Source: Morganella morganii
Lineage (GTDB): Bacteria > Pseudomonadota > Gammaproteobacteria > Enterobacterales > Enterobacteriaceae
Assembly: GCF_003996855.1 (NCBI RefSeq)
Contig: NZ_NRQY01000002.1
Location: forward strand, 657,082-721,081
Direction: 5' to 3'
Length of the DNA: 64,000 nt
In this document: positions 6,201-60,196 of the stretch, in pieces
How positions within the stretch are numbered: the stretch's first letter is position 1
Layout: each line of letters starts with the position of its first letter
The notes under the pieces: model-generated
Seen by the model: only the letters and a program-made list of their open reading frames with translations
Databases searched by the model: none
Told to the model about the DNA's origin: nothing
Program-made: the position numbers and the translations under genes

Positions 6201-9200
6201 GCGTGACACTGATCTGCGCATCACCGGATTTGGTCCCTTTCAGGGTGGCCGTGTAAGTACCGTCCTGATTATCCGTTACCGCACTGAAGGTGGTGTCTTG
6301 CAGGCCGGTGCTGAACAGCGCAGTCTGCCCCGCAACCGGGTTATTATTCACATCCCGCAGAGTCAGTGTGATTGCGGATGTCGTGTTACCGTCCGCCACG
6401 ATGGTGTCCGGTACTGCTGTAAGCGAGGATTTATCTTTATCCAGCTTACTGCTGTCTGCGGTCAGTTTTACACTCACTTCAGAAACAGCCAGTACAGCAT
6501 CATTTACTGTTACTTTGATTTTTGCGGTTCCGGCTTTAGTCCCTTTCAGAGTGGCAGTATAAGTCCCGTCCGCATTGTCTCTTACCGCACTGAACACAGT
6601 ATCTGCCAGGGTGGTTGTGCTGAATACCACTGTCTGGCCGCTCACGCTATTACCGTTAGCATCTTTCAGGTTCAGAGTCAGCGTTGACGCTGCCTTGCCA
6701 TCAGCCACGATAGTGTCAGGAACAGCCGTCAGCTCAGATTTATCCCCGCTCAGGTTACCGTTATCAGCCGTCAGTTTTACGATGACCGGCGCAACCGCGA
6801 ACGCTTTTCCGTTCAGCGTAATGCTGACTTTCGCATCCCCGGCTTTAACACCTTTCAGCGTCGCCGTGTAAGTACCATCCGGATTTTCGGTAGTATCGCT
6901 CACCGTTGTCCCTGTCAGAGGAGCACTGAAGACCACTGTCTGACCCGGGATCAGGTTCCCCTGACGATCTTTTAAGATAAAATGCAGCGTCGATGTTGTC
7001 TGATCATCTGCCACGATCGTCATCGGGTCCGCTGTCAGTGAAGATTTCTGAGCATCCGGGTTCGCACTGTCTGCCTTAAAGGTGACGGTGACAAATGGCT
7101 CACTGGTATTAATCTTCGCTTTAACAGCAACCTGTGCAGCGCGGGTACTGGTCATGCTGAATGTTACTTCGCCCTGCTCATTGGTCAGCAGTGACTGCGA
7201 GGCCGGAGCCGCACCATTGTCAGCCGAGAAAAGAACGGCCACATACGGCACAACGTTACCCTGTGCATCGGTAACAATCGCTTTCACGCTGTTGACGGAT
7301 ACACCATCTGCGGCGCTGTTATCTGCGGTCACCGTGAGGTTCGGTGCCAGAATTTCCGCTGTCGTGCTGTCCGCAGTAAACATCACTGTTTTTGATGCGG
7401 ATTTACCATTGATTTGTGCGGTGACTTTCGTGTTACCCGCACGGGTGTTAGTCAGTTCAAACAGCGCATTGCCATCCGTATCAGTGTTGATCTGCATCTG
7501 AGAGGGCAGTGCACCGTGGTCAGTGATGAACTGTACCGCCATTCCCGGAACCGGGTTATTGTAGGCATCAACAATAGTGGCTTTCACACTGTTTGCTGCC
7601 GCACCATCTGCTTTCTGATTATTGGTGACGATAACCAGGCTTGCATCTGTGATGGTTGCCGTGGTTTCATCCGCCACAAATTTCAGTGGGCGTACCGCAT
7701 CATCGCCGTTAATGCTGAAGGTATAGTTATCAGAACCGGCTTTGGTATTGCTGATACTGATACGCAGCTGACCACGGCTGTCTGTCAGACCGCTGACAGG
7801 CTGGGTCTGATAGCGCGCAGTTCCCGGCACGTTGATGGTTACCGGTGCACCGGCTAACGGGTTATTGCGGCTGTCGGTGACAGTCACCAGAACCTCATTT
7901 TTCGCTTTACCGTCAGCTTTGGCACCATCCTGAGTCACTACCGCACTCTGGATTTTCGCAGTGCTGATATCTGCAACAAACTGTGAGGTCACACTCTTCG
8001 AAGTGCCTGTTCCTTCAACCACCAGTTTTGAATCCCCGGCCGTCTCACTGCTGAAACGGATAGTGACCTGTCCGTTAGTGTCGGTCTGCTGGTTCGGATC
8101 AACAACTGTCGCGCCATTATCCGCTCTGGCGGTTAACGGGAAGTTTTCCACCTGGTTATCAAACTGGTCAGTGACCGTTGCCACAGCGATGTTCTTCGCC
8201 TGGCCATCCGCTACGGCTTTGTTATTGGTTAACTCAAGCGTTTTGATTTTTGCGGTACTGATATCAGCAAGATAAGTGATTGATTCCGTCCGGCTGTTAC
8301 CGTTACGCATCTTGGCTTTCAGCAATCCTTTACCGGCGGATTTACTGATGATTTTCACGGTCGCCGTGCCGTCCGGCCCGGAGATTACGGTCAGGGTCTG
8401 GCCGCTGTTACCGTCCGCATCATAAATTGTCACACCTTCCGGATTTTTCAGGCCGGAAACGCTGAAGGTGACTGCTTTATTCGGCAGCACTTCACCTTTG
8501 TCATTCTGTAACAGAGCAACGGCCGTGAACTGGTCGCTGTTATTGGCGATTAATGACTGATTCGGCGTTACCGTCAGGCGGGTAATGGTTTCCACAGACG
8601 GAATAACATTCACCCACATTTCTGCGGTGTTGGACGGGTTACCCTCGTTATCTTCACCCACCGTCGTCACACGGTAGCCCTGCGGCCCGCCGTTGCGATC
8701 CATAAAGATATATTCCGGCAGGGTAATATCTGCCGTGGTCAGCCCGGTTTGTTTAATTTCACCACCGTTTGCCAGCAGTTCAGGCGCTGACCAGCGCAGT
8801 GATTTCAGGCCGTATTTGGCTTTCAGCACACTGACCGTCACCGGCAATGTCTGTGCCGCTTCACCGTTGAGTGCCGGCGGCAGTGCAATCCGCAGCAGTT
8901 CCTGCTTACGGTACTGCATCACAATGTTGTAGTTTCTGTCGACAAAATCGTAACGGTTACCTGCCAGGTTACGCATCAGATCAACATTTTCGGTATCCAG
9001 CTGTTGTGACAACGGCACGCCGAAACGGTAGGAAAGTTCCATACCAATCTGGCTGTCATTGGAATCACCACGGGATGTCTGACCTTTGAACGTGATCAGC
9101 GGGAACGGGGTATAACTGAGTCCGAAGGTGGAAACTGACGGGTTATTTTTCAGTTCACCGGAAGAAGTGGTACTGGCCAGGCTGATGCCGTCGCCGAAGT

Positions 9201-10242: not shown

Positions 10243-10280
10243 GAATACATCCCCGAAATAAGATTAAAAACCCGGAAAAA

Positions 10281-10760
10281 TTAAATATCAGAAAGTGCTT
10301 TTATTTTATCCTTCACACCAATGAAACCTGCGTACTGCACTTTGGTACATAAGGTGTCCAGTTTTTTATTCAGCGTCATGGATAACACCTCACGGGAGTC
10401 TTTATCCATAATCTCTTTATTGACGTTTAAGAAGGTGTAGTTCTGATTAATACGTCCGTAGCTGGATGAGAAATCATTAAACTCAGCCTGATTGACACCT
10501 TTAAGGAAATTAAACCCGTCAACACACGCGTTATTTGTGGATGCAATAACAATTCCCTGTGATGCTAATTGTTTACTTCCCACATACGCCTGTGCCGCGT
10601 TATTACCGGTCACATTAGGAGTGGCAGAACGGGTTTGCTGCTTCACCGGCGGATTTTTAACTGCTGCCGTATTTTTCTTTACCGGTGATGTTGAGCAGGC
10701 AGAAATAACCAGTGAAAGACCGGCTACAACGAGTGCTTTTTTGTTAATCATCATTTTCAT
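10281..10760 (-). CDS. Small lipoprotein upstream of the adhesin
   Basis: This 159-residue protein starts with a lipoprotein signal peptide: basic start, hydrophobic ALVVAGLSLVISA, then the lipobox cysteine of ISAC at about residue 22. The mature part opens with a Lys/Thr/Pro/Asn-rich linker and continues as a mostly polar domain with two cysteines. I do not recognise the family. An AGGA ribosome-binding sequence precedes a cluster of candidate ATG codons, so the start may be codon 1 or codon 3. The stop is 38 bp from the adhesin start on the same strand, so it is probably co-transcribed and may help export or anchoring of the adhesin. That role is an inference from position only. Confidence 0.75.
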   Translation of the reverse strand: MKMMINKKALVVAGLSLVISACSTSPVKKNTAAVKNPPVKQQTRSATPNVTGNNAAQAYVGSKQLASQGIVIASTNNACVDGFNFLKGVNQAEFNDFSSSYGRINQNYTFLNVNKEIMDKDSREVLSMTLNKKLDTLCTKVQYAGFIGVKDKIKALSDI

Positions 10761-10947
10761 TCATTCCTATTTATAAAATTAACTCTTACAGAGAGAAATT
10801 ACAGGTTTAATAAAAACACCTGACTGCCGATGATATGAAGTTAGTGCAACATATTATTAACAGCATTCAGATGTCATCAGACAGAAATAGGTTGGTGATG
10901 TTAAATACACGAGTAAAGGGAGAGTCATAACAGCCGGATAGTCAGCA

Positions 10948-11240
10948 TTACGGATTATCAGTGTCATCTGTATTTTCCTCTCCGGAAATAACAGACTGAT
11001 AGTGGGTGCTGATAATGGAGAAAAGTTCGCTGATCTCACGCTCCGTCATTCCCAGTGCCGCACAGTATCTGAGCATGACGTCCGGACTAAGCACCGACAG
11101 CCCGCGTTCATAGCGGGATATCTGCTGCTGGCTGATATTCAGTTTTTCAGCCACTTCCGAACCTGTTAATCCCTGACTTTTTCGCCTTCTTTTTAAAAAA
11201 AAACCACTTCTTTCAATAGAGATATATTATTATCACACAT
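10948..11240 (-). pseudogene. MrpJ-like HTH regulator, frameshifted at a T9 run
   Basis: The reading frame ending at 10948 encodes an XRE/MrpJ-type helix-turn-helix (LKRRRKSQGLTGSEVAEKLN followed by ISQQQISRYERG), but it has no proper start. An ATG at 11240-11238 with an AGG seven bases upstream opens a frame encoding MCDNNISLLKEVVFF that meets a stop in a run of nine T (11203-11195, minus strand). Adding one T, or slipping back one base on the run, joins the two into one protein of about 97 residues that looks like a full family member. MrpJ-family proteins are known to repress motility and affect virulence genes in Proteus. The gene heads the leftward adhesin locus. It may be a true frameshift, a slip-strand phase switch, translational or transcriptional slippage, or a homopolymer sequencing error. 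Confidence 0.7.
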
Positions 11241-11868
11241 AGCAAAACCTGATTTACCCGGGATATTTAACTCCTTTTAGGTTTATCCGGAATAATTAAC
11301 GACAGTAATGAACATAAAAATCCTGTTATTACGCACTATATCCACCGGAGAATCAGACCGGAAAGGTAACGTTCCCTGTTAATTACTGCATCCTTTATCG
11401 GAAAAGAAGCCAGCCACTGCTTTTATTTTCAGTTGATATTATTCAGCCAAATACAAGTTAAGTGAGTTTAATCACCATTATTCAGCAGCAATAAGATCGC
11501 TGATAACAAAATAATACCGATAAATCATCACTATCAGATCGGGTAAAGAATAAGTGAATCCTGAGCAGTCATGCAAATAATCATTCTTCTTTCGTTACCT
11601 TAAGAACAATTGGTAAAATCTATCTGTGAGTAACCATAAATAGTAATAACGGGGGAAATAACCATGTAATTTCAGTTTATTATATAAAACAAACCGCACG
11701 GGTAATGATGGCGTAACAAAAATGATATTTTAGATAACTCCCTGCATGATTAAACCTGTATCACTTTGTTACAGTTTTAATCCTCTTTTTATTCATATAA
11801 GTATAATAAAAAGAATTTTATTATGATTAATTAAATATAACTCCAATAACTTGTATTTTATGCCGGTT
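11241..11868. other. AT-rich non-coding stretch
   Basis: About 630 bp without a convincing gene lies between the MrpJ-like regulator and the ugpQ terminator. It is strongly AT-rich. It presumably holds the promoter of the leftward adhesin locus, including the AGG ribosome-binding sequence at about 11248-11250. I see no repeat or RNA gene in it. Confidence 0.5.
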
Positions 11869-11904
11869 AAATAAAAACACCGGCCTGTCAGAGAAAGCCG
11901 GTGT
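11868..11904 (-). terminator. Terminator after ugpQ
   Basis: The inverted repeat ACACCGGC (11877-11884) / GCCGGTGT (11897-11904) forms an 8-bp stem. Read on the minus strand it is followed by TTTTTATTT, a good intrinsic terminator just past the ugpQ stop. Confidence 0.85.
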
Positions 11905-11924
11905 AATAATGATGCAATATAGCA

Positions 11925-12662
11925 TTAAGAAAAACGATTTTCGTCCCTGTATATTGCAGGGTTATCGGTTATCAGCATACCCACCCCCCAGTCCGCAAAA
12001 TGCGCAACCAGTTCCGGATAATTAGGTGTATAGCAAAAAACCTGATAACCCGCATTTCTCAGTGATTTCGCGGTTTCTTCCCGCAGAAACAGCCAGTCAC
12101 AGTGTACACTGAACGCCTCAATCTCCTGAAGCAGCGCCAGAGGCTGCGGCGGGATTTTTTCCCAGAGCTGTCCGCGCCGGATGTGCGGCATCCGTTTGTA
12201 CATATACCGCAGTGTGCGGGTATCAAAACCGGAAAAAAGAATCCGTTCAGCCGGAAAATTCTGCATTTCAAGCACTGCCGCCGTGGCTTCACACAGCTGT
12301 GCAATCGCATGGTCACTGTCTGTAAGCTCAGTTTTCAGTTCCAGATTCAGATGCAGATCATATTCTTCCGCCAACTCCAGCAGATCCGTCAGCAGCGGAA
12401 TTTTTTCTCCCCGGTACACTTCTCCTGCCCATAACCCGGCATCCGCTGTCCGCAGCTCGCGTAAGGTCAGTGACGTCACTTTTCCGCTGCCATTGGTAGT
12501 GCGGTTAACCGTTTCATCGTGGATCAGCACCGGAACACCGTCGGCGCTGATCTGAACGTCAGTTTCAATCCACAGACAGCCAAACTCCGCAGCCTGCCGG
12601 AATGCCGTCATGGTGTTTTCCGGTGCACGGGCGGAAAAGCCGCGGTGTGCTGCAATAATCAT
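11925..12662 (-). CDS. ugpQ: Glycerophosphodiester phosphodiesterase UgpQ
   Basis: The product hydrolyses glycerophosphodiesters to glycerol-3-phosphate and an alcohol in the cytoplasm. The start chosen is the ATG at 12662 because AAAGGA lies seven bases before it and because the protein then begins MIIAAHRGFSARAPENT, the canonical start of the family. An in-frame codon 30 bases further upstream has no such support. The resulting 245 residues match the usual UgpQ length. The HRG motif, the ETDVQISADGVPVLIHDE metal-binding stretch and the C-terminal GVGMLITDNP are all visible. It stands alone, 45 bp downstream of narL, with its own terminator. Confidence 0.93.
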   Translation of the reverse strand: MIIAAHRGFSARAPENTMTAFRQAAEFGCLWIETDVQISADGVPVLIHDETVNRTTNGSGKVTSLTLRELRTADAGLWAGEVYRGEKIPLLTDLLELAEEYDLHLNLELKTELTDSDHAIAQLCEATAAVLEMQNFPAERILFSGFDTRTLRYMYKRMPHIRRGQLWEKIPPQPLALLQEIEAFSVHCDWLFLREETAKSLRNAGYQVFCYTPNYPELVAHFADWGVGMLITDNPAIYRDENRFS

Positions 12663-16836: not shown

Positions 16837-16897
16837 TTAATTCAATTCTGATAATCAGAGCAATGTGAGCGCCCGGCGCTTATCGGGGGATTACCGA

Positions 16898-19800
16898 ATG
16901 AGCAAGTTTTTAGACAGATTCCGTTATTTTAAGCAGCGCGGGGAAACCTTCTCCGGCGACCACGGACAAGAACTGAACGTCAACCGCGACTGGGAAGATG
17001 GTTACCGCAGCCGCTGGCAGCATGACAAAGTTGTCCGTTCCACCCACGGCGTGAACTGTACCGGTTCATGCAGCTGGAAAATCTACGTGAAAAACGGCCT
17101 GGTGACCTGGGAGACGCAGCAGACGGACTACCCGCGTACCCGTCCTGATCTGCCGGACCATGAACCGCGCGGCTGTCCGCGCGGTGCCAGCTATTCCTGG
17201 TATCTGTACAGCGCGAATCGCGTGAAGTATCCGATGGTACGCAAACGCCTGATCAAACTGTGGCGTGAGGCCAAAGCGCAGCACGCGGACCCGGTGGATG
17301 CATGGGCGTCCATTATTAATGATGAGGCAAAAGCCAAAAGCTACAAACAGGCCCGCGGCCGCGGCGGATTTGTCCGCTCCGACTGGCAGGAAGTGAATGA
17401 AATGATTGCGGCAGCCAATATTGTGACTGCCAAACAGTTCGGCCCTGACCGTATTATCGGTTTCTCACCGATCCCGGCGATGTCGATGGTTTCCTATGCC
17501 TCCGGCGCCCGTTATTTATCCCTGATCGGCGGTGCCTGCCTGAGTTTCTATGACTGGTATTGTGACCTGCCGCCGGCCTCCCCGCAGACCTGGGGTGAGC
17601 AGACTGACGTGCCGGAATCCGCTGACTGGTATAACTCCTCTTATCTGATAGCCTGGGGTTCCAACGTCCCGCAGACCCGCACCCCGGATGCGCACTTCTT
17701 CACTGAAGTCCGTTATAAAGGTACTAAAACTGTCGCGGTCACTCCCGATTATGCTGAAATCGCCAAACTGTGCGACCAGTGGCTGAATCCGAAACAGGGA
17801 ACAGACAGTGCCATGGCGCTGGCCATGGGGCACGTGATCCTCAATGAGTTCCACGCGAAGCGTCAGGCGGAATACTTCACCAATTATGTCCGTACTTACA
17901 GTGATATGCCGATGCTCGTGATGCTGGAACCACGGGCGGAAGGCGGCTATGTGCCTGGTCGTATGCTGCGGGCATCAGATCTGGTGGATTCACTCGGCGA
18001 GAAAGAAAATGCCGAATGGAAAACTATTGCCATTGATGAAAACAGTCAGCAACTGGTGGCACCGCAGGGCTCTATCGGGTTCCGCTGGGACAAATCCCGC
18101 AAATGGAACCTGAAGCCGCGTGACGGCAAAAACGGTGACGAAATCACCATGCAGCTGAGCCTGCTGGATAAGCACGATGATGTTGCCGATGTCGCTTTCC
18201 CGTATTTCGGCGGCATTGAAAATGAATTCTTTGAAGGTGTGGCACTGGATGAAGTGCTGATGCACAAACTGCCGGTAAAAGTGGTGCGTCTGGCAGACGG
18301 CAGTGACGTCCGTGTGGCGAGTGTCTTCGATTTAACTCTCGCCAACTACGGTATCGATCGCGGTCTGAATGATGTGAACTGCGCGGCGGACTACAGCGAA
18401 ATCAAGGCCTATACCCCGGCCTGGGCAGAGGAAGTGACCGGCGTCAGCCAGCACCATATCTCCCGCATTGCCCGCGAGTTTGCCGATAACGCCGAGAAAA
18501 CCCACGGCCGTTCAATGGTGATTGTCGGTGCCGGTATCAACCACTGGTATCACATGGATATGACCTACCGCGGCATCATCAATATGCTGGTGTTCTGCGG
18601 CTGTGTCGGTCAGAGCGGCGGCGGTTGGTCACACTATGTGGGCCAGGAAAAACTGCGTCCACAGACCGGCTGGTTACCGCTGGCGTTCGGGCTGGACTGG
18701 TCACGTCCGCCGCGCCATATGAACAGCACCTCGTTCTTCTATAACCACTCCAGCCAGTGGCGTTATGAAACTGTTCAGCCGCAGGAATTGCTCTCTCCGC
18801 TGGCGGACAAATCCCGCTTCAGCGGCAGCCTGCTGGACTTCAACATCCGTGCCGAGCGCATGGGCTGGCTGCCGTCCGCGCCGCAGCTGAACGTGAACCC
18901 GCTGACTATCGCGGCGAGAGCAAAAGAAGCCAGTCAGGACCCGCAGGCCTACACCGCAGAAGCGCTGAAGAGCGGCACAATCCGTTTTGCGGCGGAACAG
19001 CCGGATAATCCGCAGAACTTCCCGCGTAACCTGTTTATCTGGCGCTCCAACCTGCTCGGCTCTGCCGGTAAAGGCCATGAGTATCTGCTGAAATACCTGC
19101 TCGGCACCGAAAACGGTCTGCTGGGTAAAGATCTCGGCGAACAGGGCAGCGTGAAACCGGAAGAAGCGGAATGGGTGGATAATGCCCCGGAAGGAAAAGT
19201 GGATCTGGTGGTCACACTCGATTTCCGTATGTCCAGTACCTGTCTGTTCTCGGATATCGTGCTGCCGACCGCGACCTGGTATGAAAAAGATGATATGAAC
19301 ACCTCAGATATGCATCCGTTCATTCATCCGCTGACCGCCGCTGTTGATCCGGCCTGGGAATCCAAAACCGACTGGGAAATCTACAAAGGGATCGCCAAAT
19401 CCTTCTCTGAACTCTGTCCGGGCCACCTAGGTAAAGAGACGGATGTTGTCACCCTGCCTATCCAGCATGACTCCGCGGCCGAAATGGCGCAGCCGTTTGA
19501 TGTGAAAGACTGGAAAAAAGGCGAATGTGATCTGATTCCGGGGAAAACCGCACCGCACCTGATGGTGGTGGAGCGCGATTATCCGAATACCTACGCCCGC
19601 TTTACCTCTCTGGGGCCGCTGCTGGATAAACTCGGCAACGGCGGGAAAGGTATCAGCTGGAATACACAGGAAGAAGTCGATTTCCTGAAAAAACTCAACT
19701 GCACCCGTACTGAAGGCGCGGCGGAAGGTCGTCCGGCGATTGAAACCGCGATTGATGCGGCAGAAGTCGTACTCTCGCTGGCACCGGAAACCAATGGCCA

Positions 19801-20659
19801 TGTGGCGGTGAAAGCCTGGGATGCGCTCGGTAAAGTCACCGGCCGCGACCATACCCATCTTGCCATCCATAAAGAAGATGAAAAAATCCGCTTCCGCGAT
19901 ATCGTGGCGCAGCCGCGCAAAATTATCTCCAGCCCGACCTGGTCCGGCCTCGAAGATGAACATGTCTCTTATAACGCGGGTTACACCAACGTTCACGAGA
20001 TGATCCCGTGGCGCACTCTGAGCGGTCGTCAGCAGTTGTATCAGGATCACGAATGGATGCGCGCATTCGGTGAGGCACTGGTGGTGTATCGTCCGCCGGT
20101 CGATACCCGTGCGGCACAGCCGCTGCTGGGCGCCAAACCGAACGGCTATCCGGAGAAAGCTCTGAACTTCCTGACCCCGCACCAGAAATGGGGTATTCAC
20201 TCCACCTACAGTGATAACCAGCTGATGCTGACCCTCGGCCGTGGTGGTCCGGTGGTGTGGCTGAGCGAGGAAGATGCCCGTTCACTGGGGATTGAGGATA
20301 ACGACTGGATCGAAGCCTTTAACAGCAACGGCGCACTGACTGCCCGTGCGATTGTCAGCCAGCGTATCCCGGACGGCATGATCTTTATGTATCACGCCCA
20401 GGAGCGTCAGATTAACCTGCCGGGCTCGGAAGTGACCGGTATGCGCGGCGGTATTCATAACTCCGTCACCCGTGTCTGCCCGAAACCGACCCATATGATC
20501 GGCGGCTACAGCCACCTGGCGTACAGCTTCAACTATTACGGCACTGTCGGCTCCAACCGTGACGAATTTGTGGTGGTTCGCAAAATGAAAAATGTGGACT
20601 GGCTCGACGGTGAGCAGGATGGTTATCAACAGACCCTGAGCGGGCAGGAGAAAGCATAA
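16898..20659 (+). CDS. narG: Respiratory nitrate reductase alpha subunit NarG
   Basis: NarG is the catalytic molybdenum bis-MGD subunit that reduces nitrate to nitrite on the cytoplasmic face. The start at 16898 is chosen for the GGGGGA seven bases upstream and the conserved MSKFLDRFRYFKQRGETF beginning; an in-frame codon 33 bases earlier is not supported. This gives 1253 residues. The FS0 iron-sulfur ligands His50, Cys54, Cys58 and Cys93 are present in STHGVNCTGSCSW and RGCPRGASYSW. The molybdenum-ligand region around YCDLPPASPQTWGEQTDVPE is intact. The last base of the stop is the first base of the narH start. Codon 844 is the rare leucine codon CTA inside CCTAGG, possibly a changed CCTGG Dcm site. 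Confidence 0.98.
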   Translation: MSKFLDRFRYFKQRGETFSGDHGQELNVNRDWEDGYRSRWQHDKVVRSTHGVNCTGSCSWKIYVKNGLVTWETQQTDYPRTRPDLPDHEPRGCPRGASYSWYLYSANRVKYPMVRKRLIKLWREAKAQHADPVDAWASIINDEAKAKSYKQARGRGGFVRSDWQEVNEMIAAANIVTAKQFGPDRIIGFSPIPAMSMVSYASGARYLSLIGGACLSFYDWYCDLPPASPQTWGEQTDVPESADWYNSSYLIAWGSNVPQTRTPDAHFFTEVRYKGTKTVAVTPDYAEIAKLCDQWLNPKQGTDSAMALAMGHVILNEFHAKRQAEYFTNYVRTYSDMPMLVMLEPRAEGGYVPGRMLRASDLVDSLGEKENAEWKTIAIDENSQQLVAPQGSIGFRWDKSRKWNLKPRDGKNGDEITMQLSLLDKHDDVADVAFPYFGGIENEFFEGVALDEVLMHKLPVKVVRLADGSDVRVASVFDLTLANYGIDRGLNDVNCAADYSEIKAYTPAWAEEVTGVSQHHISRIAREFADNAEKTHGRSMVIVGAGINHWYHMDMTYRGIINMLVFCGCVGQSGGGWSHYVGQEKLRPQTGWLPLAFGLDWSRPPRHMNSTSFFYNHSSQWRYETVQPQELLSPLADKSRFSGSLLDFNIRAERMGWLPSAPQLNVNPLTIAARAKEASQDPQAYTAEALKSGTIRFAAEQPDNPQNFPRNLFIWRSNLLGSAGKGHEYLLKYLLGTENGLLGKDLGEQGSVKPEEAEWVDNAPEGKVDLVVTLDFRMSSTCLFSDIVLPTATWYEKDDMNTSDMHPFIHPLTAAVDPAWESKTDWEIYKGIAKSFSELCPGHLGKETDVVTLPIQHDSAAEMAQPFDVKDWKKGECDLIPGKTAPHLMVVERDYPNTYARFTSLGPLLDKLGNGGKGISWNTQEEVDFLKKLNCTRTEGAAEGRPAIETAIDAAEVVLSLAPETNGHVAVKAWDALGKVTGRDHTHLAIHKEDEKIRFRDIVAQPRKIISSPTWSGLEDEHVSYNAGYTNVHEMIPWRTLSGRQQLYQDHEWMRAFGEALVVYRPPVDTRAAQPLLGAKPNGYPEKALNFLTPHQKWGIHSTYSDNQLMLTLGRGGPVVWLSEEDARSLGIEDNDWIEAFNSNGALTARAIVSQRIPDGMIFMYHAQERQINLPGSEVTGMRGGIHNSVTRVCPKPTHMIGGYSHLAYSFNYYGTVGSNRDEFVVVRKMKNVDWLDGEQDGYQQTLSGQEKA

Positions 20660-28676: not shown

Positions 28677-29669
28677 TTATTTGCTGCTTTTCGCCTCGGG
28701 CGGCAGGTTCTTCTCGGCAGATCGCGCAATACTATACATCCGCTGCATCATCGCACCGTCGGTGGTTTCCGCAACAATAATCACATAGCGCCGCTCTTTC
28801 TGGTCATAGCGGAAATAGGTACATTCCGGTTTACCCCGGCGGTTGTAGTAAATCGCGCCGTTCTCTTCCTGATAGACAATACCTTTCTGCTGATTCAGCC
28901 ATTCCTCAAAACGCCAGCGGTATTTCGGCACTTTCACCAGGTGGATGATCCCTTCCGCATCACTGAGCGGATCGCGGAAGCGGTAAATCTCAGTGTTACT
29001 ATCATCACTTTCGATATGAATGCCGCCGATATCCCGGACATAATCACCGTCTTCCTGTTTTTTCAGATTGAAGGCCAGCATTTCCGGCAGGGTTACAGAG
29101 ATATTTTCAGTCATTCTGATAGTATCACCGGAAACCGGCGGGAAGCCGTTTTGTTTGTAATACTGACGCTGTGTCTCCAGATAAGCTTCATAGGAAGAAG
29201 CTCTGGCGTCAGATACCGCTTTCATACCCGCCAGTTTTTCTGACGTCTGATCGGCACGGGAGAGGGTCATTTTTATTTCGCAGTTAAAAAATCCGCACGC
29301 ACCCTCTTTTTCTGTAGTCAGATAAACAGTCTGTCCGCTGTCGGGTGATGTCCAGGTCGCCTGTATCTCATTCAGTTCAAAGGTATTACCATGGATCTTA
29401 CTGTCAAAATGGTTGCCGTTGTTATCCACCGTGACGCTGTCCGGCTCAAAATAAAAGAATGTGGTGTCTTTCAGGCTGATCATCGTGTCGCGGATAGCGG
29501 CTTTCACATTTTTTTCCGGATCACTGTTCTCCGGCGCATTATCCGCCGGGTTATCATAAGTGACGGTAATATCATCAATCACATAATAGCCGTCCGGCGC
29601 CGGCGGCGGGGTTTCCTTACATCCGGCCAGCAATGCAAATACCACTGATAAAAAAACACCCCTTTTCAT
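28677..29669 (-). CDS. Lipoprotein of unknown function
   Basis: The 330-residue product has a lipoprotein signal (MKRGVFLSVVFALLAGC) with the lipid-accepting Cys17 and a proline-rich linker after it. The mature part is polar and about 310 residues long, with a cysteine pair in the CGFFNCEI segment. I do not recognise the family. It is monocistronic, ends in a shared terminator and is divergent from the TauE-family transporter gene. Confidence 0.75.
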   Translation of the reverse strand: MKRGVFLSVVFALLAGCKETPPPAPDGYYVIDDITVTYDNPADNAPENSDPEKNVKAAIRDTMISLKDTTFFYFEPDSVTVDNNGNHFDSKIHGNTFELNEIQATWTSPDSGQTVYLTTEKEGACGFFNCEIKMTLSRADQTSEKLAGMKAVSDARASSYEAYLETQRQYYKQNGFPPVSGDTIRMTENISVTLPEMLAFNLKKQEDGDYVRDIGGIHIESDDSNTEIYRFRDPLSDAEGIIHLVKVPKYRWRFEEWLNQQKGIVYQEENGAIYYNRRGKPECTYFRYDQKERRYVIIVAETTDGAMMQRMYSIARSAEKNLPPEAKSSK

Positions 29670-32747: not shown

Positions 32748-33612
32748 AATCGTCTTTATTTTCTGCGCTACTGCCCCGCGCTTTTCCTTTAATTTCCGTG
32801 GTGGCTTTAATATTGATAACAAACGGTTTAAATGCGAATTTTTTATAGCGCTGCAACACATACCAGATCCGGAAAAAACGGGAACTGTCACCGTAGCGTT
32901 TCATATCCGCAGTGCTCAGCCCGAAATGCCCCTGAAGCTGATAACTCAGCTGTGCAGTGAAGTGATTACTTTTAATATGAAGAGAATCCAGGGTGATTTC
33001 TGTCGCCCAGGTATCATTGAGCATCACAGGCGTTCTCTTTTTCAGATCCTGCCAGCGGTTATATGCCGGAAACAGCGTTTTATTCAGTCCTTCCCGGAGG
33101 CTGTCCTGTAAATCAGCATCCTCACGAAGTTTCACCGTCTGCCAGTCAATCTGTGCGGCAATAATTTTTTTCACCGCCGTCTGTAACGGATTGAGTGCAT
33201 CCTGATCCAGAATATTATCCCGGAAGGAATAATCCAGCGCGCGGTCACGATACGGCCTGCCATTGGCATTCTACATATGGGTGATCAGTTTTTTCAGAAC
33301 GCCCGGATAACCGCCTGACCAGGAGAATTGTGAGGATAACTGCCGCATCTCATCAAACAATATCCGGCTGACAGCTTTTGCCCCGAGGTTAAAAATCTGC
33401 GGCGTGTAATCACGCCCCATCAGCAGTGGATGGCTGCCCGCTTCCGGTTTCCGCATGGTCCAGGGGTCTACCTGTGCGGAGACATCATGCAGCCGCAACA
33501 GATCACGAAGCTGAAGTAACTCAAAATCACCGCTGCGCATATCGTCCGGACGATAATCATCCCGGCGGCGCTGCGACTGACAGATTAATAACGGAAATGA
33601 TAATGTTGCCAT
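32746..33612 (-). pseudogene. DUF3289-family protein interrupted by an amber codon
   Basis: Two leftward frames, 33612-33271 and 33270-32746, are in the same phase and separated only by one TAG at 33273-33271. The first begins near MRSGDFELLQLRDLLRLHDV and ends KKLITHM. The second reads on NANGRPYRDRALDYSFRDN through to the end of the domain. Together they make a protein of about 288 residues that fits the DUF3289 family; its function is unknown to me. The most likely original codon is CAG. The surrounding bases (ATGTAGAAT) do not form a Dcm site, unlike the other amber codons in this window. It may be a true pseudogene, or read through if the strain has an amber suppressor tRNA. Confidence 0.72.
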
Positions 33613-33707
33613 TCTGTCCCTGAATAATCTCTGTACATTTTATACGATGATTATTTTATCATCAGCAGACGGAAAGATCCTTGCCGTCAGTCTGAAAGCG
33701 GGAGCGA

Positions 33708-36536: not shown

Positions 36537-37473
36537 ATTTATTGATTAACCCTGTCGCATTTACTTATTTCTGGTTACCAATTAATAGATAATTCCTTTA
36601 TTTTCATGATGATACAAAATGCTATAATTTTGTAAAAAACATTATTCGATAAGTGATGTTGGTTTTAATTAAAATAAACAGGGTAATGTTCAAATAAACC
36701 AATAATGTGAACCGGATCTTATTTTTTTAATTCACCACCATTCTTATTTTAATGAGAATGATTTTATATAATGATGAAAACCCTGTTTTAACACTGAAAT
36801 TATTCAATCTTTACCGGTATAAACATCTTATTGCATCTCCCTATCACTGTTATGGCAAAATATTTGACTAGTGATAAAAAATTACCGTCATGGCAGACAA
36901 CATGAATAAATCAGATATAGATCACATTATTTCATCAATATCGACAAAGGTCACAATATTGACTATTCTCCCGGTTCTCTCAGCCGTAATCCGGAAAAAC
37001 AGTGCTATAACGAATGGGTTTCACACACTGATACACCTCCGGCTGGCGGCCTTTCCGCCAACAGCAGGAAATACAGGCGAAAGGGACAGAGCGATCCCTG
37101 ATTAGCCAATCCTCATTACTAAATTGTTACATAATTGTGGTTTTATTTTTTGGGGATGATATCTGTTTCATTGTGTCTCAAAAATATTTTGCACTTGCTC
37201 ACACATAATTACTTAAAAAACACATCAATATCAGAGTATTTCAGTATGTGAGCACCATAGCGTATAAATAAAATTTACTTAACTGTGATGTATGCCGCAA
37301 TATTATCAGAGACAGAAAACAGTTGTTGTCTCAGGGTAAGAATGGCATCTGATCGCATCGCAAAACTCAGAAATAATAAATAAAACTGTATTATTTATTT
37401 TTAACAGCCATCAATTCCCCTTCCTTATTAATTATTAATATAAAACTAATCGCTAAAACTAATCACTTTTGTA

Positions 37474-43487: not shown

Positions 43488-44352
43488 ATGACAAAAATAT
43501 TCCGTTATATCAGTGTGCTGACTGCACTCGTATTTATCTCTCTGCCCGTCCGTGCAGAGATTTACAGTTATATTACCCGCTCAGAAGGAAAACCGACAAA
43601 TATCGATTATTACTATACCATTTCCGCCTGGAATCCGCCTCTGCGCGGCAGTGCAAACCCGTGTAAACTCGCCGGACTATCCGGTAAATGCTATGCCAAT
43701 ATTAACCATCGCCATACCAATGCCGACAAGGGCGGAATTGCTGATCGTAATGATAAAACATTTAACCAGCGCTGCCGTAATGTGGATTTAAATACCCTGC
43801 GCGATGGCTTTGAGGTCTATAGCTACATTTATAATACCTGCTTCGGCGGATTACCCTACAGCGGTACAACCAACCATGTCGGAACCGCGATCCGCAATGA
43901 GTGCGTCACACTTTTTCTGACATCGACCCCCAATGGCGGGAGCGGCAATATGTATCTCGGCGCCGTTTGTGGTGTTGCTCCGCCTCCCGGCGGAATATGC
44001 AGTTTTGATCTCGATCGCCCGGGCGCGGTTTTAAACCATCAGAAGGTGGCGGAAAATGCCATTAATGGTAATCAGGCATCTGAGTATCTGACGATGAAAT
44101 GCAGTAAAGATACTGTTGTCAGAATTTATTCCGTTACTGACTCAAGCGCCCGGCTGAAACTGAAAAATAACCTGTATACCCGGCTGACACTGAATAACTA
44201 TCTGCTTGATGCCGGCAGCGGCGGCGTACCGATCTATTGTCCGTGAGGGCTATCCGAACACGGCTCTGCTGAAGAGAACGCTTGAAACGACCGGCCCGGT
44301 GGAACCCGGTTCATTCTTCGGCAATATTTCCATTATTATGACCATCGACTGA
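43488..44352 (+). pseudogene. Fimbrial tip adhesin, frameshifted near the C-terminus
   Basis: The frame encodes a two-domain tip adhesin: signal peptide, an N-terminal lectin-like part with several cysteines, and a C-terminal pilin domain from about 165. It stops early at 44246 after GVPIYCP. Removing one T near 44240 makes the frame run on as VREGYPNTALLKRTLETTGP and end FFGNISIIMTID at 44352, the expected last strand of a chaperone-usher subunit. Without it the protein would lack the donor strand needed for chaperone binding. Either this is a disabling mutation or a sequencing error. It is the last gene of the operon. Confidence 0.78.
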
Positions 44353-49901: not shown

Positions 49902-51088
49902 ATGTCTGATACATTTACTGCACTATTTAAACAAGCTCTCTACCTGGTGATTAAATATACCCCATTTTTAATATTATTTTCCGGGATAACAATTTGGTTC
50001 TATCTTAGCCATATCGGAAGGATAAATATATTTCCTGAGATTATTTCTTCTTACTCCAGTTTTATTTCCATATTAGCTTCCTTATTCTTTATCGGCACCG
50101 CATTCAGTATCATATTTATCCTGCCTGGCTTATTACTTATTTTTCTTCATTTAATTCTTAACCAAAAAGACAACATTAAATATATAGAGAAAACACCGGC
50201 CGTCAGCACGACGCATATCCTGTGCTTTTATTGTTATACTATTATCCATCTCAGCCTATAATGTCAGTTATAAAAAAGATGTTTCTTTCGACATAACATG
50301 GATAATAGTAATTTCAGCATCATTACTTTATACCATAATAAATACAAGCATAAACTACACCTACATAAAAAGAAAATCATTTACTAAAAACACATTTCGT
50401 CTTATTGGAATAATAATTACTATAACTACTTTCATGTCAATATCATCATTATCAATTTCACTTCCCATGCTATTGATTTTAAATAAAGCCTCTGCTAATG
50501 ATGCTGTATCAATATTTTCTCTTTCAGCAATTTTATTAGCATTTACATTTTTTTGCTTTATACCGGCGTCGATTTATTATCGTCAATTTGATAATAAATT
50601 AATTAAACCAGAAAAAAACGAAATATCATTAATGATTATTACCCCCCCCTCTGGTCATTCTCTTTTTGGTCTGTATGCTGGTTCCCGGATTATCCGTTAG
50701 TATTATACACTTATCCCTGAACACCCTTGGTTTTTCAGACTCTCAACCACATTATTACTATATCAACAGCAAAAAATACACTTCAGATATGTTTGATAAA
50801 AATGACTGAAATCCTGTCACACAAGGAAAATTTGACAGGAAATTATATATTAAAGGCGTCAGTTTGTTTTCAATGTCAGGAAAAAAGCTTATTTGCCCTG
50901 AAAATACACTCAGACTTCAAATTGAAACCTATACAACAGACTTATATAAACAACATTTTGAACTGGATAAAGATAAAATGAAACAGCTTAAGGCTGCCAC
51001 ACAAAACTGTATCCTGTTTAATAATGATGATATCCAGCAATGGGATACATTATTCGATGATAACGGAAAGCTAAAAGGAACTGAATAA
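49902..51088 (+). pseudogene. Decayed multi-pass membrane protein gene
   Basis: Four consecutive stretches in shifted frames once formed a protein of about 395 residues. The first (49902-50261) has two membrane segments. Its frame shifts near 50220 into CAFIVILLSISAYNVSYKK. A second shift at the C8 run (50642-50649) leads from SLMIITPP to LVILFLVCMLVPGLSVSIIH; seven C would restore it. An in-frame TGA follows SDMFDKND, after which NPVTQGKFDRKLYIKGVSLF continues to 51088. It is markedly AT-rich compared with its neighbours, suggesting foreign origin. I do not recognise the family. Confidence 0.75.
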
Positions 51089-54693: not shown

Positions 54694-55593
54694 ATGCGAC
54701 CTGCGGACTATCTGCGGCTTACTCTGCTGGCGGCCATATGGGGTGCCAGTTTTCTTTTTATGCGGGTGGCCTCCCCGCAGTTCGGCGCGGTTAACACTGC
54801 CTTTCTGCGCGTATTTTTCGGCTGTGCGGGACTGCTGGTCATTCTCCTCGTCATGCGCCGCACCTTCCGGTTTGACGGAAAATTAAAACCGGCATTATTG
54901 CTGGGCGTGATTAACTCCGGGATTCCCTTTTTTATGTACTGTCTGGCCGCGCAGTGGCTGCCGGCAGGTTACTCCGCCATTCTCAACGCCACCACGCCGC
55001 TGATGGGTGCCCTGATCGGCTTTGCTTTCTTTGCCGAAACCCTGACCGCCCGCAAATGGCTGGGCGTGATGATGGGACTGGCCGGTATTGTGGTGATCAC
55101 GACGGTCGGGGAAAGTCAGTCTTCCGCCCATTTATTATGGGGTGTGGCCGCCTGTCTGCTTGCCACCGCCTGTTACGGGCTGGCGGGATTCCTGACACGG
55201 CGCTGGATCAGTGAAAAAGGCGGACTGGACGCACGGTTGGTCGCGTTCGGCAGTCAGCTCGGCGCCACCCTTTTTCTGCTGCCGTTTTTCGGTTTCAGTG
55301 TCACAACCGGCCCGGCGGTTAACTGGGCACAGCCAATGGTCTGGGGCAGTGTGATTGCGGTGGGTCTGCTCTGTACCGCCGTGGCATATATTCTCTATTT
55401 CCGCCTGATTGCGGATATCGGGCCGATGCGCTCACTGACGGTGACCTTTATGATCCCGCCGTTCGGTATTTTGTGGGGCTATCTCGTGCTTGATGAGACA
55501 CTCAGCCCGAACTTCTTCCTCGGCGCACTGATTGTCTGCGTGGCCGTCTGGCTGCTGGTCAGCCGCGGTAAACAGCCCGCAGCGGCAAAATAA
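54694..55593 (+). CDS. EamA/DMT-family transporter
   Basis: This 299-residue protein has ten membrane segments in two EamA repeats (about 7-140 and 150-290), with the typical start LTLLAAIWGASFLFMRVASP and AGYSAILNATTPLMGALIG. Such proteins export metabolites or amino acids. AAGGAA precedes the start. It is divergent from iutA, and the substrate is unknown. Confidence 0.88.
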   Translation: MRPADYLRLTLLAAIWGASFLFMRVASPQFGAVNTAFLRVFFGCAGLLVILLVMRRTFRFDGKLKPALLLGVINSGIPFFMYCLAAQWLPAGYSAILNATTPLMGALIGFAFFAETLTARKWLGVMMGLAGIVVITTVGESQSSAHLLWGVAACLLATACYGLAGFLTRRWISEKGGLDARLVAFGSQLGATLFLLPFFGFSVTTGPAVNWAQPMVWGSVIAVGLLCTAVAYILYFRLIADIGPMRSLTVTFMIPPFGILWGYLVLDETLSPNFFLGALIVCVAVWLLVSRGKQPAAAK

Positions 55594-55600
55594 TTCACCG

Positions 55601-55626
55601 GGCGGCATCGCCATTATGCCGCCTTC
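55601..55626. terminator. Hairpin between DMT and propeller genes
   Basis: GGCGGCAT (55601-55608) pairs with ATGCCGCC (55616-55623). Only a short pyrimidine tract (TTCCTATTCC) follows, so it is a weak terminator between convergent genes. Confidence 0.55.
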
Positions 55627-56508
55627 CTATTCCGGAGCCAGCGCAATCCCGGTAATGGCTCCCTGCTGATAAATAACCTCTTTCCGGCCATCTGACAAAT
55701 TCACTTTGTAAATACAACCAGACAGATCAGTCACATACGCAATATTATCGTCTGTTTTCACCGCCAGACCGATCGCTTCCCGGAACCCCCGGGTGATGAC
55801 CCGGTGATTATGCAGCCCTGATTCATTAAAATCCGCCACATTCAGGCTGTTACCATCCGGCGGTGCCCCCCGGTCAGTCCAATACACTCTGCCGTTCTGT
55901 AAATCAAGGCTCAGATCAATAGGCTCCGGCAAACCGGATAACAGCACCGAAATATCCGCCTCATTAATTTCTTTGCCGTCGCTGAATTTATCCAGACTCA
56001 ACCGGAAAATCCGGCCTTGTCCACCTTTTGATGCTCCTTTTTGTGTCCAGTACAGGTCATTATTTAATGTATCAACGGCAATACCTACACACTGGTCCGC
56101 AATATCCGCTACTGTGCTGCCCGCAGAATGTCTCCTGACAATTGTCTGTATGTTTTCTCCTGCGGTTGTACAACGCATAACAGCACCGCCTTCACGATCA
56201 CACCAGTACAACTCCTGCCGGGAATGGTGTAAAAACAGTTGTTTTCCGGTTGTCAGTGCTCCCAGCGGCGTCAGTAACTGCGGATTTTCCCCCCGCAACC
56301 CGCAACATCCGACAGCACCGTCTTTTTCCGTAAATGGCGCTTCTCCCATGTTTGTCCAGTAAATAACCCGATTTTTCGTATCTACCGCAATACCGTCGAG
56401 CATTCCGGGTACCGGCCCCATAATCACTGTCTGCGAAAAATCCCGCAGATCCAGCCGGATAATCTTATTTCCTTCAGTTTGCAAAAAGTACAGTACTGAC
56501 TGTGCCAT
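55627..56508 (-). CDS. YWTD-type beta-propeller protein
   Basis: The 293-residue product is made of repeats with the LDL-receptor class B motif (VIYWTNMG, ELYWCDRE, DLYWTQKG, RVYWTDRG), each preceded by IAVDTxN-like segments, indicating a six-bladed propeller. There is no signal peptide, so it should be cytoplasmic. The start at 56508 has AGGGG upstream; the codon before it is GTG. Such propellers bind proteins or act as lactonase-like scaffolds, but no catalytic site is clear and the function is unknown. Confidence 0.75.
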   Translation of the reverse strand: MAQSVLYFLQTEGNKIIRLDLRDFSQTVIMGPVPGMLDGIAVDTKNRVIYWTNMGEAPFTEKDGAVGCCGLRGENPQLLTPLGALTTGKQLFLHHSRQELYWCDREGGAVMRCTTAGENIQTIVRRHSAGSTVADIADQCVGIAVDTLNNDLYWTQKGASKGGQGRIFRLSLDKFSDGKEINEADISVLLSGLPEPIDLSLDLQNGRVYWTDRGAPPDGNSLNVADFNESGLHNHRVITRGFREAIGLAVKTDDNIAYVTDLSGCIYKVNLSDGRKEVIYQQGAITGIALAPE

Positions 56509-56713
56509 CACATTTACCCCTCAGAGAAAACAACTGTAAAACTATCAAATCACCTTACCTGATATTTCATTATTGCAGGTTAATGAAAGATAGAGCAGCC
56601 ATCGTTTTTTTAGTAACACAATACTGCCGCTGTTGTTTCCCGGAGCCCCGGGCAGTGATATAGTGCCGGGATAAAACCGGCGCACTGCCCGGCGGCTGTT
56701 TCCCGAACCGGAG

Positions 56714-57841
56714 ATGATTTTGAAAAAACACCCAGAGGACGCCCCTTTCCGGCAGTCACCCGCGGATAATTGCAGATTCACGTTTATCGATCTTTTTGCC
56801 GGTATCGGCGGGATACGCCTGCCGTTTCAGAAACAGGGCGGGCGCTGTGTTTTCACCTCTGAGTGGGATAAATTCGCCCAGCGCACCTATTTTGCCAATT
56901 TCGGTGAGATGCCTGACGGCGATATCACCCGGATCGCGGCAAAAGATATTCCGGATCACGATATTCTTCTCGGCGGTTTTCCGTGCTAGGCATTCTCACA
57001 GGCGGGTGCGCGTCAGGGGTTTAACGACACCCGCGGTACCATGTTCTTTGAAGTTCAGCGCATCATGACGGAGAAACGGCCGAAGGCGTTTCTGCTGGAG
57101 AATGTCAAACAGCTGCGCGGCCACGACGGCGGCCGGACATTACAGACCATCCTCGATATTCTGCGCGGACAGTACGAACAGACTGTACCGGATAATATTC
57201 CGCTGAGTGAAGAGACCCGCAGTGCGCTGTCGCAAAAACTGAACTATTGGGTTGATTTCCGTGTGCTGCGTGCCGCAGATTTTGGTATTCCGCAGAACCG
57301 CGAACGTATTTTTATTATCGGCTTTGATCGTGACCAGTTTCCGGATGCGGATTTTGATACCTTATTTTCCTGGCCGGAACCCACTTATCAGCCCACCCGC
57401 CTCGGCGATATTCTTCAGAGCAAAAAAGCACTGGCAGAAGATGCCGCCCGCTATAAAAAAGATCGTTTTACCATCTCCGATAAATTATGGGCCGGCCATC
57501 AGAAACGAAAAAGAGAACATAAAGCCAGAGGTAACGGCTTCGGATATTGCCTGTTTGATAAAAACAGTGAATATACCAACACCCTGAGCGCCCGCTATTA
57601 TAAAGATGGTTCTGAGATCCTGATTGACCAGTCCCGGGACGGTAAAAACCCGCGCAAACTCACCCCGCGTGAATGTGCCGGTTTGCAGGGATTTCCGGAA
57701 AATTATATTACTGATGTGGTTTCTCAGGGGCAGATCTATAAACAGTTCGGCAACTCCGTCTGTATGACTGTCGTGGAAGCTATCGCGGAAAAACTCACTG
57801 CTGCATTAGTACAGGCCGGTGCATTACCGCCGGGAAAATAA
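56714..57841 (+). pseudogene. DNA cytosine-5 methyltransferase (Dcm-like), amber codon after the catalytic cysteine
   Basis: Apart from one TAG at 56987-56989, the frame encodes a complete C5-cytosine methyltransferase of about 375 residues. Motif I is FIDLFAGIGGIRLPF, motif IV is GGFPC-TAG-AFSQAG, motif VI LLENVKQL, motif VIII QNRERIFIIGF, motif IX LTPRECAGLQGFP and motif X KQFGNSV. The TAG replaces the glutamine (CAG) right after the catalytic cysteine. TGCCAGGC would hold a CCAGG Dcm site, and TGCTAGGC is its 5-methylcytosine deamination product. The real start may be the TTG at 56720, which has GGAG at the right distance. vsr follows 81 bp downstream. The recognition sequence is inferred, from the vsr partner, to be CCWGG. 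Confidence 0.85.
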
Positions 57842-57922
57842 TCTTCCGGCGGCCTGCCGCATATTTTTCCGGGTAAATAAGGTACTCTTGGCTTATTCCT
57901 GAAATCAGCGGCTGAAAATCCG

Positions 57923-58393
57923 ATGGATGTACATGACAAAGAAACCCGTTCCCGGAATATGCGCGCCATCCGCAACCGGGATACCAAACCGGAGCATCAT
58001 GTCAGAAAGCTATTGCATCATAACGGCTTCCGTTTCCGGCTATATCCGGCAGAGTTGCCCGGCAAACCCGATATATGGATGGCAAAATGGCGGACGGCTA
58101 TCTTTATTCACGGCTGCTTCTGGCATATGCACGATTGTGAAAAATTCCGTCTCCCCGCCACCCGGACAGAATTCTGGCAAAAAAAATTATCAGAGAATAA
58201 ACTCCGTGATGAAAAATATAGCGCAGAACTGCACCGCTCGGGCTTACGGACATTAATCATCTGGGAATGTGCTCTGACCGGGAAAACAAAATTGTCTGAT
58301 CCGATGCTGCTCACATTAATAAAAACCTGGCTGATGAGCAGCGCTGTTTCAGGCAGTATTACAGACTCCGGATTAACCATCACGCCAGGCTGA
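57923..58393 (+). CDS. vsr: Very-short-patch repair endonuclease Vsr
   Basis: Vsr nicks next to T in T:G mismatches formed by deamination of 5-methylcytosine in Dcm sites, starting repair back to C. This 156-residue protein matches Vsr along its length: DVHDKETRSRNMRAIRNRDT, catalytic Asp in LPGKPDI, zinc and active-site region FIHGCFWHMHDC, PATRTEFWQKK and LIIWECALTG. All key residues look intact. It is paired with the interrupted methylase gene and lies six bases before the WYL regulator gene. Confidence 0.95.
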   Translation: MDVHDKETRSRNMRAIRNRDTKPEHHVRKLLHHNGFRFRLYPAELPGKPDIWMAKWRTAIFIHGCFWHMHDCEKFRLPATRTEFWQKKLSENKLRDEKYSAELHRSGLRTLIIWECALTGKTKLSDPMLLTLIKTWLMSSAVSGSITDSGLTITPG

Positions 58394-58399
58394 TACCTT

Positions 58400-59098
58400 A
58401 TGACACGTACCCAACGTTTACTCACCTTATTGCAGATCCTGAAAGAGAACCGCTATCCGGTCACCGCAGATTCCCTTGCCTCGCAATTACAAATCAGTGT
58501 GCGTTCCGTTTACCGGGATATTGAAACCCTGCGTTGCCAGGGTGCTGAAATTACCGGCGAAGCCGGTATTGGCTATCAGATGAAATCCGGATTACTGCTG
58601 CCGCCGATGATATTTGATGTCAATGAACTGGAAGCCTTAATTCTGGGATTGCGCTGGGTACAGAGTAATGCGGATGATGAACTGAAAGCCTCGGCTGCCC
58701 GAGCGGCCAATAAAATCAATGCCGTGGTGGAACATGAATCCCGTGCTGTTTTCAGCGACAGCACATTATTTGTGCCCGCCTCACAACTGACACAAGTGGA
58801 TAATTACATTGCCGGGGAATTACGCCGCAGTCTGCGGGAAGAATTGAAAATCAAACTGCATTATCAGGATAAAGAGGCGCAGACCAGTAACCGGGTTATC
58901 TGGCCGATCGCCATCGGCTATATGAAAGAGGTTCAGGTTCTTGCCGCCTAGTGTGAATTACGTCAGAGCTACCGGCATTTCCGGCTCGACAGAATCCAAT
59001 CCTGTGAAGTATTAACAGACAAACTGCCGTACCCGAAAAAATACCTGCTCGACCGCTGGCGCAAAGAAGTCCTCTGCATCCCTCCTGACAGATTCTGA
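58400..59098 (+). pseudogene. YafY-like HTH/WYL regulator, amber codon near the C-terminus
   Basis: The frame begins MTRTQRLLTLLQILKENRYP with an N-terminal helix-turn-helix (LASQLQISVRSVYRDIETLR) and a WYL ligand domain. It stops at TAG 58949-58951 after EVQVLAA. Reading past it gives CELRQSYRHFRLDRIQSCE and a proper family C-terminus to 59098 (232 codons). Family members have tryptophan there (AAWCELR), so TGG became TAG. GCCTGG held a CCTGG site, and CCTAG is its deamination product on the other strand. Related regulators often control the gene next door, here a glutathione S-transferase. Confidence 0.82.
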
Positions 59099-59148
59099 CA
59101 CACCTCCCGCTTATGATGATGTCTCAACATACTAAACAGGAGAACATC

Positions 59149-59748
59149 ATGAGCGGACTGACACTTTATACCAATGCAATGTCACGCGGGAATACCGTCG
59201 ATTTATTTCTGAAAATTCTGGGCGTGCCGTATCAGCGCGTTGAACTGGATTATGGTGACGATATGCATACCCCGGAATATCTGGCCATCAACCCGTTGGG
59301 CAAAGTGCCAGCGTTAACAGACGGCGACCATGTTGTTACAGAAACGGCCGCCATCTGCATGTATCTTGCAGATAAATTCATTGAAAAAGGTTTCGCGCCC
59401 GCATTTGACTCTCCGGAGCGCGCCGCGTATTACCGCTGGTTCCTGTTCACTGCCGGACCTGTCGAAGCTGCATTTACCGCCAAAGAATTTGGCTGGATAC
59501 TGACAGAAGAAGAACAGAAAATGTCCGGTTTCGGCTCCTTTGACCGGGTGATGGCCTGCCTGGAAACAGGGCTGGCTGAAGCAGCACCGTATTTATGCGG
59601 CAATACCATGATAGCTGTTGATGTTTATACCGGCTATTTCCTGATGTTCCTGGCCAAACATGACCTGATTACCATCTCTCCGGTCATGAAAGCGTATTTA
59701 GACAGCCTGACGTCAAACTCGGCATTTGCCGCTGCCTTCTCAGAATAA
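59149..59748 (+). CDS. Glutathione S-transferase family protein
   Basis: The 199-residue protein has a thioredoxin-like N-terminal domain (LTLYTNAMSRGNTVDLFLKI, with NPLGKVPALTDGDHVVTETAAI for glutathione binding) and a helical C-terminal domain. The active residue is probably Ser in NAMSRG. Start at 59149 with AGGAG nine bases upstream; the in-frame ATG 36 bases before it lacks support. It follows the WYL-type regulator gene and is possibly its target. The substrate is unknown. Confidence 0.9.
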   Translation: MSGLTLYTNAMSRGNTVDLFLKILGVPYQRVELDYGDDMHTPEYLAINPLGKVPALTDGDHVVTETAAICMYLADKFIEKGFAPAFDSPERAAYYRWFLFTAGPVEAAFTAKEFGWILTEEEQKMSGFGSFDRVMACLETGLAEAAPYLCGNTMIAVDVYTGYFLMFLAKHDLITISPVMKAYLDSLTSNSAFAAAFSE

Positions 59749-59881
59749 TAACAGCAGCACACCTGTTATACGGCGGATGCAAAAGTACAGCACCCGCCAT
59801 TTCTGCACTTTCTTTTACGGTTTATCCGCAGTACAGTTTCCTCAGTAATATAATTCTGGTAACAATCCGGCAGAGGAAATA

Positions 59882-60196
59882 ATGATAAAAAATATCCTGA
59901 AAATAATCACATTCCCGGTTTTGCTTTTTATTTCCGCCTCCGGTTTTGCACAAACGGTTACTGCCTAGGGTGATACTTTATCTGACGCGGAAGCCAAAAT
60001 AGCCCGTCAGGCAGAAAAGGCCGGTGCCGGATATCAGATAACCAGTGCCAGAGTCGGCTGGGTCACTTATGTTACGGCCACACTGACACCATTACCGGAA
60101 AATACACCTAATATTTCACCTGACGAAAAACAAACTCAAAATAACGTATTACCACAAACGGAAAATACCAGAAACCACTGGCTGACAGAAAAATAG
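59882..60196 (+). pseudogene. DUF1471 (YdgH/BhsA/McbA-like) protein, amber codon 29
   Basis: The frame encodes a signal peptide (MIKNILKIITFPVLLFISAS, cleaved after GFA), then QTVTA, TAG at 59966-59968, and GDTLSDAEAKIARQAEKAGA followed by YQITSARVG and YVTATL, a typical DUF1471 periplasmic domain. It ends at a second TAG, 60196. The codon replaced was probably TGG (or CAG); either lies in a CCWGG site, and the present CCTAGGG is the deamination product. Intact, it would be a small periplasmic stress-type protein of about 104 residues. Confidence 0.75.

Follow-up and report, generated by a model that had tools for sequence, protein, structure and literature searches.

Amber codons at former CCWGG sites in a 64 kb stretch of Morganella DNA most likely reflect ordinary mutability of methylated cytosine

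Introduction

In the 64 kb of Morganella DNA analyzed here, which is called the window throughout, the tetranucleotide CTAG occurs only five times (positions 19427, 36868, 56986, 58948, and 59965) versus a mean of 127.66 in shuffled sequences. Three of these sites bring an in-frame TAG, at 56987, 58949, and 59966, into otherwise open genes. An earlier sequence-only reading had noticed this rarity, with the right count and four right positions (the site at 36868 had been placed at 36869), and had proposed that every amber sits at a Dcm site, as a signature of either 5-methylcytosine deamination or base-calling errors. The locus raises the question of whether these genes were cut by mutation of a methylated motif, by faulty base calls, or by luck, and which methylase was involved.

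Short-patch repair is a cause of CTAG scarcity, and Coulondre, Miller, Farabaugh, and Gilbert in 1978 reportedly described methylated CCAGG sites of E. coli lacI as hotspots of amber mutation. Like in those hotspots, in-frame ambers in the window correspond to a C-to-T change of the methylated C in CCAGG. Unlike them, the window comes from a natural strain with vsr present and a probable CCNGG-type enzyme, and is known here from assembled sequence alone.

Materials and methods

The window was compared with six Morganella genomes. The nearest was G004 with 91.6% identity across 52.9 kb aligned, followed by G006 (90.4%), G001 (M. morganii Mm1; 88.7%), G005 (88.4%), and G003 (M. psychrotolerans; 81.2%). 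None of the six looks like the same species as the window and, therefore, all comparisons run between species.

Nonsense codons were surveyed in the window and in the sister stretches of G001, G004, G005, and G006 (76–80 kb each) using non-overlapping frames of other genomes. A lesion was kept if two or more other genomes revealed it, and stops in antisense or nested frames were excluded. One candidate at 29452 was discarded, its codon carrying two changes and being no stop in the window. The survey returned no frameshift; the window frameshifts given below come from separate alignments, and frameshifts of the sisters were not surveyed alike. All P values concerning the four lost CCWGG sites draw on one set of sites and must not be multiplied.

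Results

CTAG sites and their ancestral motifs

Alignment with the Morganella relatives showed CCWGG at four of the five CTAGs, in agreement with the earlier proposal that four of them arose by one transition at this motif. The site in the relatives is CCAGG at 56986 (5/6 genomes) and CCTGG at 58948 (6/6), at 59965 (5/6), and, as had also been proposed for narG, at 19427, where the change is silent (Table 1). Altogether, 123 CCWGG sites are still present in the window and four are lost. The scarcity of CTAG is genus-wide, with 14 sites observed versus 110.3 expected when the window and the stretches of four relatives were pooled. Sister G004 carries a CCWGG-to-CCTAG loss of its own at window position 18112. 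The hexamer CCTAGG is found twice in the window and 11, 20, 10, 24, 15, and 22 times in the entire genomes of G001 to G006, respectively. Many of those in G004 and G006 are presumably spaced like rRNA copies, so that the whole-genome counts are only a rough yardstick for the window.

Table 1. Positions of the features discussed in the text
Feature	Position	Strand	Remarks
CTAG within narG (16865–20659)	19427–19430	+	silent CCTGG loss; CCTGG in 5/5 aligned relatives; narG domains matched
DUF3289 gene	32749–33636	-	amber 33271–33273; PF11692 on both sides of the stop
Fifth CTAG	36868–36871	+	neither the window nor its relatives have CCWGG here
Cytosine-5 DNA methylase gene (M.MmnI-like)	56714–57841	+	amber 56987–56989 directly after the catalytic Pro-Cys codons; PF00145 on both sides
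vsr, very-short-patch mismatch endonuclease	57923–58393	+	apparently intact by alignment to E. coli Vsr and to relatives
HTH/WYL (YafY-like) regulator gene	58400–59098	+	amber 58949–58951; HTH_11 upstream and a weak WYL match downstream of the stop
YdgH/BhsA-like (DUF1471) gene	59882–60196	+	amber 59966–59968; PF07338 in a relative's protein

Genes cut by ambers

Four nonsense codons were detected in otherwise open genes of the window (33273, 56987, 58949, and 59966), every one TAG. The sister stretches contain one (G006), none (G005), one (G004), and two (G001), which are TGA or TAA only. In relatives, the methylase gene has uninterrupted frames of 375–381 codons, the WYL regulator gene frames of 232 codons, and the DUF1471 gene frames of 99–107 codons. 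Frames of 295–300 codons were found for the DUF3289 gene in three of four close relatives, the fourth being unaligned here. The methylase cluster P0001 (476 member sequences, of which the representative alone was inspected) has an intact M. morganii representative, and the WYL cluster P0121 (192 members) likewise has an intact representative. The ambers could also have been old pseudogenes common to the relatives, a case named beforehand as speaking against the proposal; where the window has its three CCWGG ambers, no stop is present in any of the six Morganella genomes.

The claim that all ambers lie at such sites held for three of the four. The DUF3289 amber is outside any CCWGG or CCNGG site and is a counter-example to the link with methylation sites. 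Nevertheless, among 1097 possible C-to-T nonsense positions in the window only 71 are CCWGG cytosines, against which three of four ambers give a P of about 0.001.

Four TAGs versus four TGA or TAA stops in the sisters, together with coding sequence that still resembles the relatives beyond the stops, would also be expected if the strain tolerated ambers, e.g. by a suppressor tRNA, so that TAGs accumulated while the genes still partly worked. However, TAG is the product of 72% of the C-to-T nonsense targets in the window, which makes four of four unremarkable; TAG also ends four other listed frames of at least 100 codons (two of them possibly spurious), and no tRNA gene was found within the window. 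We regard amber tolerance as highly improbable.

Three further features of the window are recorded here. The gene of an MrpH-like fimbrial adhesin at 43488–44349 (PF24222, PF24223) has a frameshift near 44238, close to the gene end, in comparison with 287-codon frames in three relatives. At 49902–51085, a decayed 394-codon gene shows two frame changes, one TGA, and eight consecutive C residues; its intact relative gave no Pfam match. A frame of 3345 codons on the minus strand (205–10242) contains repeats about 306 bases apart and perhaps encodes a large repetitive surface protein.

Identity of the methylase

The methylating enzyme had been taken for Dcm, which does not agree with the profile searches: with the profile of the E. 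coli Dcm subfamily (NF007772), P0001 reaches 251.1 bits where the curated cut-off is 710 bits, and its identity to E. coli Dcm is 40%. Instead, primers published for the Morganella morganii methylase M.MmnI (M.Mom25830ORF2065P) fit the locus. Two of the four match exactly (56714, gene start, and 57906, downstream flank) and a third matches with two mismatches (57822, gene end), while the fourth, the first-round forward primer, was not found at up to four mismatches within 55500–58500. By this match, the window methylase is the gene cloned as M.MmnI in PMC10082018, as far as the available part of that paper describes it, where methylation by M.MmnI is given for CCAGG, CCTGG, CCCGG, and CCGGG. 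The window enzyme shares its genus with M.MmnI and differs from it in being amber-cut. Thus, it is likely of an M.MmnI-like CCNGG type rather than E. coli Dcm, with CCNGG as the probable motif.

As in the E. coli dcm-vsr arrangement, the methylase gene adjoins vsr, whose product is 47% identical to E. coli Vsr over 150 residues. Unlike in E. coli K-12, where the two genes overlap, they are non-overlapping in the window, and the methylase stays below the Dcm subfamily cut-off.

The state of vsr

The Vsr protein, assigned to the families TIGR00632 and PF03852, passes the TIGR00632 cut-off of 97.85 with 138.8 bits, and its frame of 156 codons equals that of four close relatives, i.e. it is full-length. 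Hypermutation of CCWGG by loss of vsr was considered and rejected, since vsr is intact and the share of C-to-T changes at other cytosines of the window is ordinary. In M. psychrotolerans DSM 17886 (G003, locus L034), the frames of both methylase and vsr are split at about 9634–12600, which is an independent loss of the module.

Base-calling errors at methylated sites

If the assembly were made from nanopore reads only and the methylase were active, a few CCWGG sites could have been read as CTAG, and the three genes concerned would be intact. All four changes hit precisely the methylated position, intact relatives exist for the three amber genes, and Dcm motifs were a known failure of the nanopore callers of 2019: with the default models, a consensus error at such motifs of about 0.4% of bases was reported for K. 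pneumoniae in the part of PMC6591954 available to us. Like those errors, the window changes are confined to CCWGG. However, over 64 kb this rate would amount to roughly 250 errors at Dcm motifs, so that many CCWGG sites should be affected; with four changes and 123 CCWGG remaining, the window has roughly sixty times fewer than predicted. Also, the fourth amber is outside CCWGG, and three nonsense changes among the four exceed what a count of positions predicts (P = 0.066). The ambiguous calls of recent R10 data were reported beside methylated adenines in the accessible text of PMC12016153. The direction of errors at CCWGG is not settled by the available parts of PMC8486125, PMC11389150, PMC12345217, PMC10687267, and PMC8350357.

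A strong base-calling artefact is unlikely, a mild one may have occurred, and overall we give an artefact roughly one chance in a few. Of the two origins offered at the outset, deamination fits better. If the changes were artefacts, annotation would label working genes as pseudogenes.

Rates of change at CCWGG

Private C-to-T changes at inherited CCWGG cytosines amount to 4/180 in the window, which is no excess over the other cytosines (704/19,535). The corresponding CCWGG counts in the four sisters are 0/180, 1/178, 2/182, and 0/170. Compared with the pooled sisters (3/710), the losses in the window are more frequent (P = 0.034). With a stricter definition of the ancestor, the window has 2/70 changes at CCWGG versus 113/7707 elsewhere, and the sisters have 0/70, 0/62, 0/60, and 0/64. 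With a laxer definition, 4/216 CCWGG cytosines of the window are changed, a share lower than that of other cytosines (P = 0.037). At CCSGG, a further target expected for an enzyme of this kind, 5/300 changes in the window versus 8/1118 in the sisters are no clear excess (P = 0.16). Regarding the traits of a deamination hotspot, the changes do fall on the motif's methylated cytosine, whereas the C-to-T rate is not above that of unmethylated cytosines and the two expected products are not both seen: CTAG was formed four times and CTTGG or CCAAG never, numbers too small for much weight.

By effect, the changes at CCWGG comprise three nonsense (71 targets), one silent (183 targets), and no missense (two targets). 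Three of the four losses are clustered inside 2981 bp (P = 0.052).

An origin in ordinary C-to-T nonsense mutations that hit CCWGG in dispensable genes by luck, without any role of methylation, would agree with the lacking excess over other cytosines, with the 72% share of TAG among the products, and with the amber that has no CCNGG site, as well as with the Providencia amber described below. Against it stands that three of the four ambers fall on CCWGG cytosines, which make up 71 of the 1097 possible positions. We hold this explanation to be improbable, though not negligibly so.

A second amber at the same WYL codon

In G218 (locus L146), a genome matching Providencia sneebia, TAG is present at WYL codon 184, equivalent to window positions 58949–58951. 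Across 183 residues, its WYL protein does not differ from P0123 (Providencia sneebia DSM 19967). The context of this amber has no CCWGG, the frame continues beyond the stop with the similarity to relatives retained, and no methylase relative was found in G218 at an E-value of 1e-20. The codon is TGG in 22 of 24 Providencia-genus genomes (one has the amber, another is truncated earlier) and in 6/6 Morganella relatives. From the approximately 25 C-to-T nonsense routes of the gene, we estimate the chance of an independent second amber at the same codon at roughly 4–8%. The shared position may be due to luck or to a useful truncated regulator.

The self-site of the methylase

The methylase amber lies in a self-site, i.e. 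a probable target of the enzyme itself across its catalytic Pro-Cys-Gln codons. This self-site is present in 5/6 Morganella relatives versus 1/12 related methylases of other genera. The latter count covers 12 distinct loci that are 66–72% identical, have Ala after Gln, and are able to form the site; left out were L145 (a copy of the contig of L009) and loci with another residue after Gln, with lower identity, or in which the motif was not found (e.g. L017, L019, L020, and L022). A wider sample provided one new locus (L171), and 2726 of 2730 plasmid matches were below 60% identity. The scarcity of the self-site outside Morganella might reflect avoidance by other methylases. The self-site could be a built-in self-inactivation hotspot, at which deamination caused by the enzyme ends the enzyme, and through which the methylase-vsr module would be lost time and again; we consider this a doubtful idea with a small chance of being right.

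Discussion

We favor ordinary deamination of 5-methylcytosine at CCWGG, with ambers kept in dispensable genes and the active-site codon of the methylase among them, at a probability of roughly 0.55. The CCWGG sites in the relatives, the ambers in the window, the type of the enzyme, and the apparently intact vsr are seen directly in the data. From there, the M.MmnI-type enzyme, while active, would have methylated CCNGG in this strain, and 5-methylcytosine at CCWGG would have deaminated to T. The adjoining Vsr would repair most mismatches, so that few changes survive and CTAG stays rare. Escapes would appear chiefly as ambers, since a stop can arise within CCWGG only by the change that makes CTAG, and would persist in the living strain in genes that it can lose. 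Since the self-site spans the catalytic codons of the methylase, deamination there is proposed to have stopped methylation. Other genomes have lost such genes, too: M. psychrotolerans G003 has split frames for both methylase and vsr, and 2/24 Providencia-genus genomes have a cut WYL gene.

Deamination with Vsr repair accounts for the link between ambers and CCWGG and for the general scarcity of CTAG. Taken alone, it predicts neither the shortage of silent products nor the local cluster. The few silent products (1/183 versus 3/71 nonsense) count against it because selection should favor silent changes, and with vsr intact, poor repair is unexplained. Further points against deamination are that C-to-T changes at CCWGG do not exceed those at other cytosines of the window, that CTTGG and CCAAG are absent, and that CCSGG shows no clear excess. 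To these are added the amber without a CCNGG site, the missing fourth primer, and the intact representatives of P0001 and P0121. Of the proposed link between ambers and CCWGG, the three ambers at sites conserved in relatives stand, while a C-to-T rate at the motif above that of the other cytosines of the window was not found.

Thus, the original observation is real yet overstated, and its mechanism is most likely ordinary: the pattern most likely shows the long-known mutability of methylated cytosine and nothing new. It would connect the loss of genes by a natural strain with this classic mutability, and it corrects the likely identity of the enzyme to a CCNGG type.
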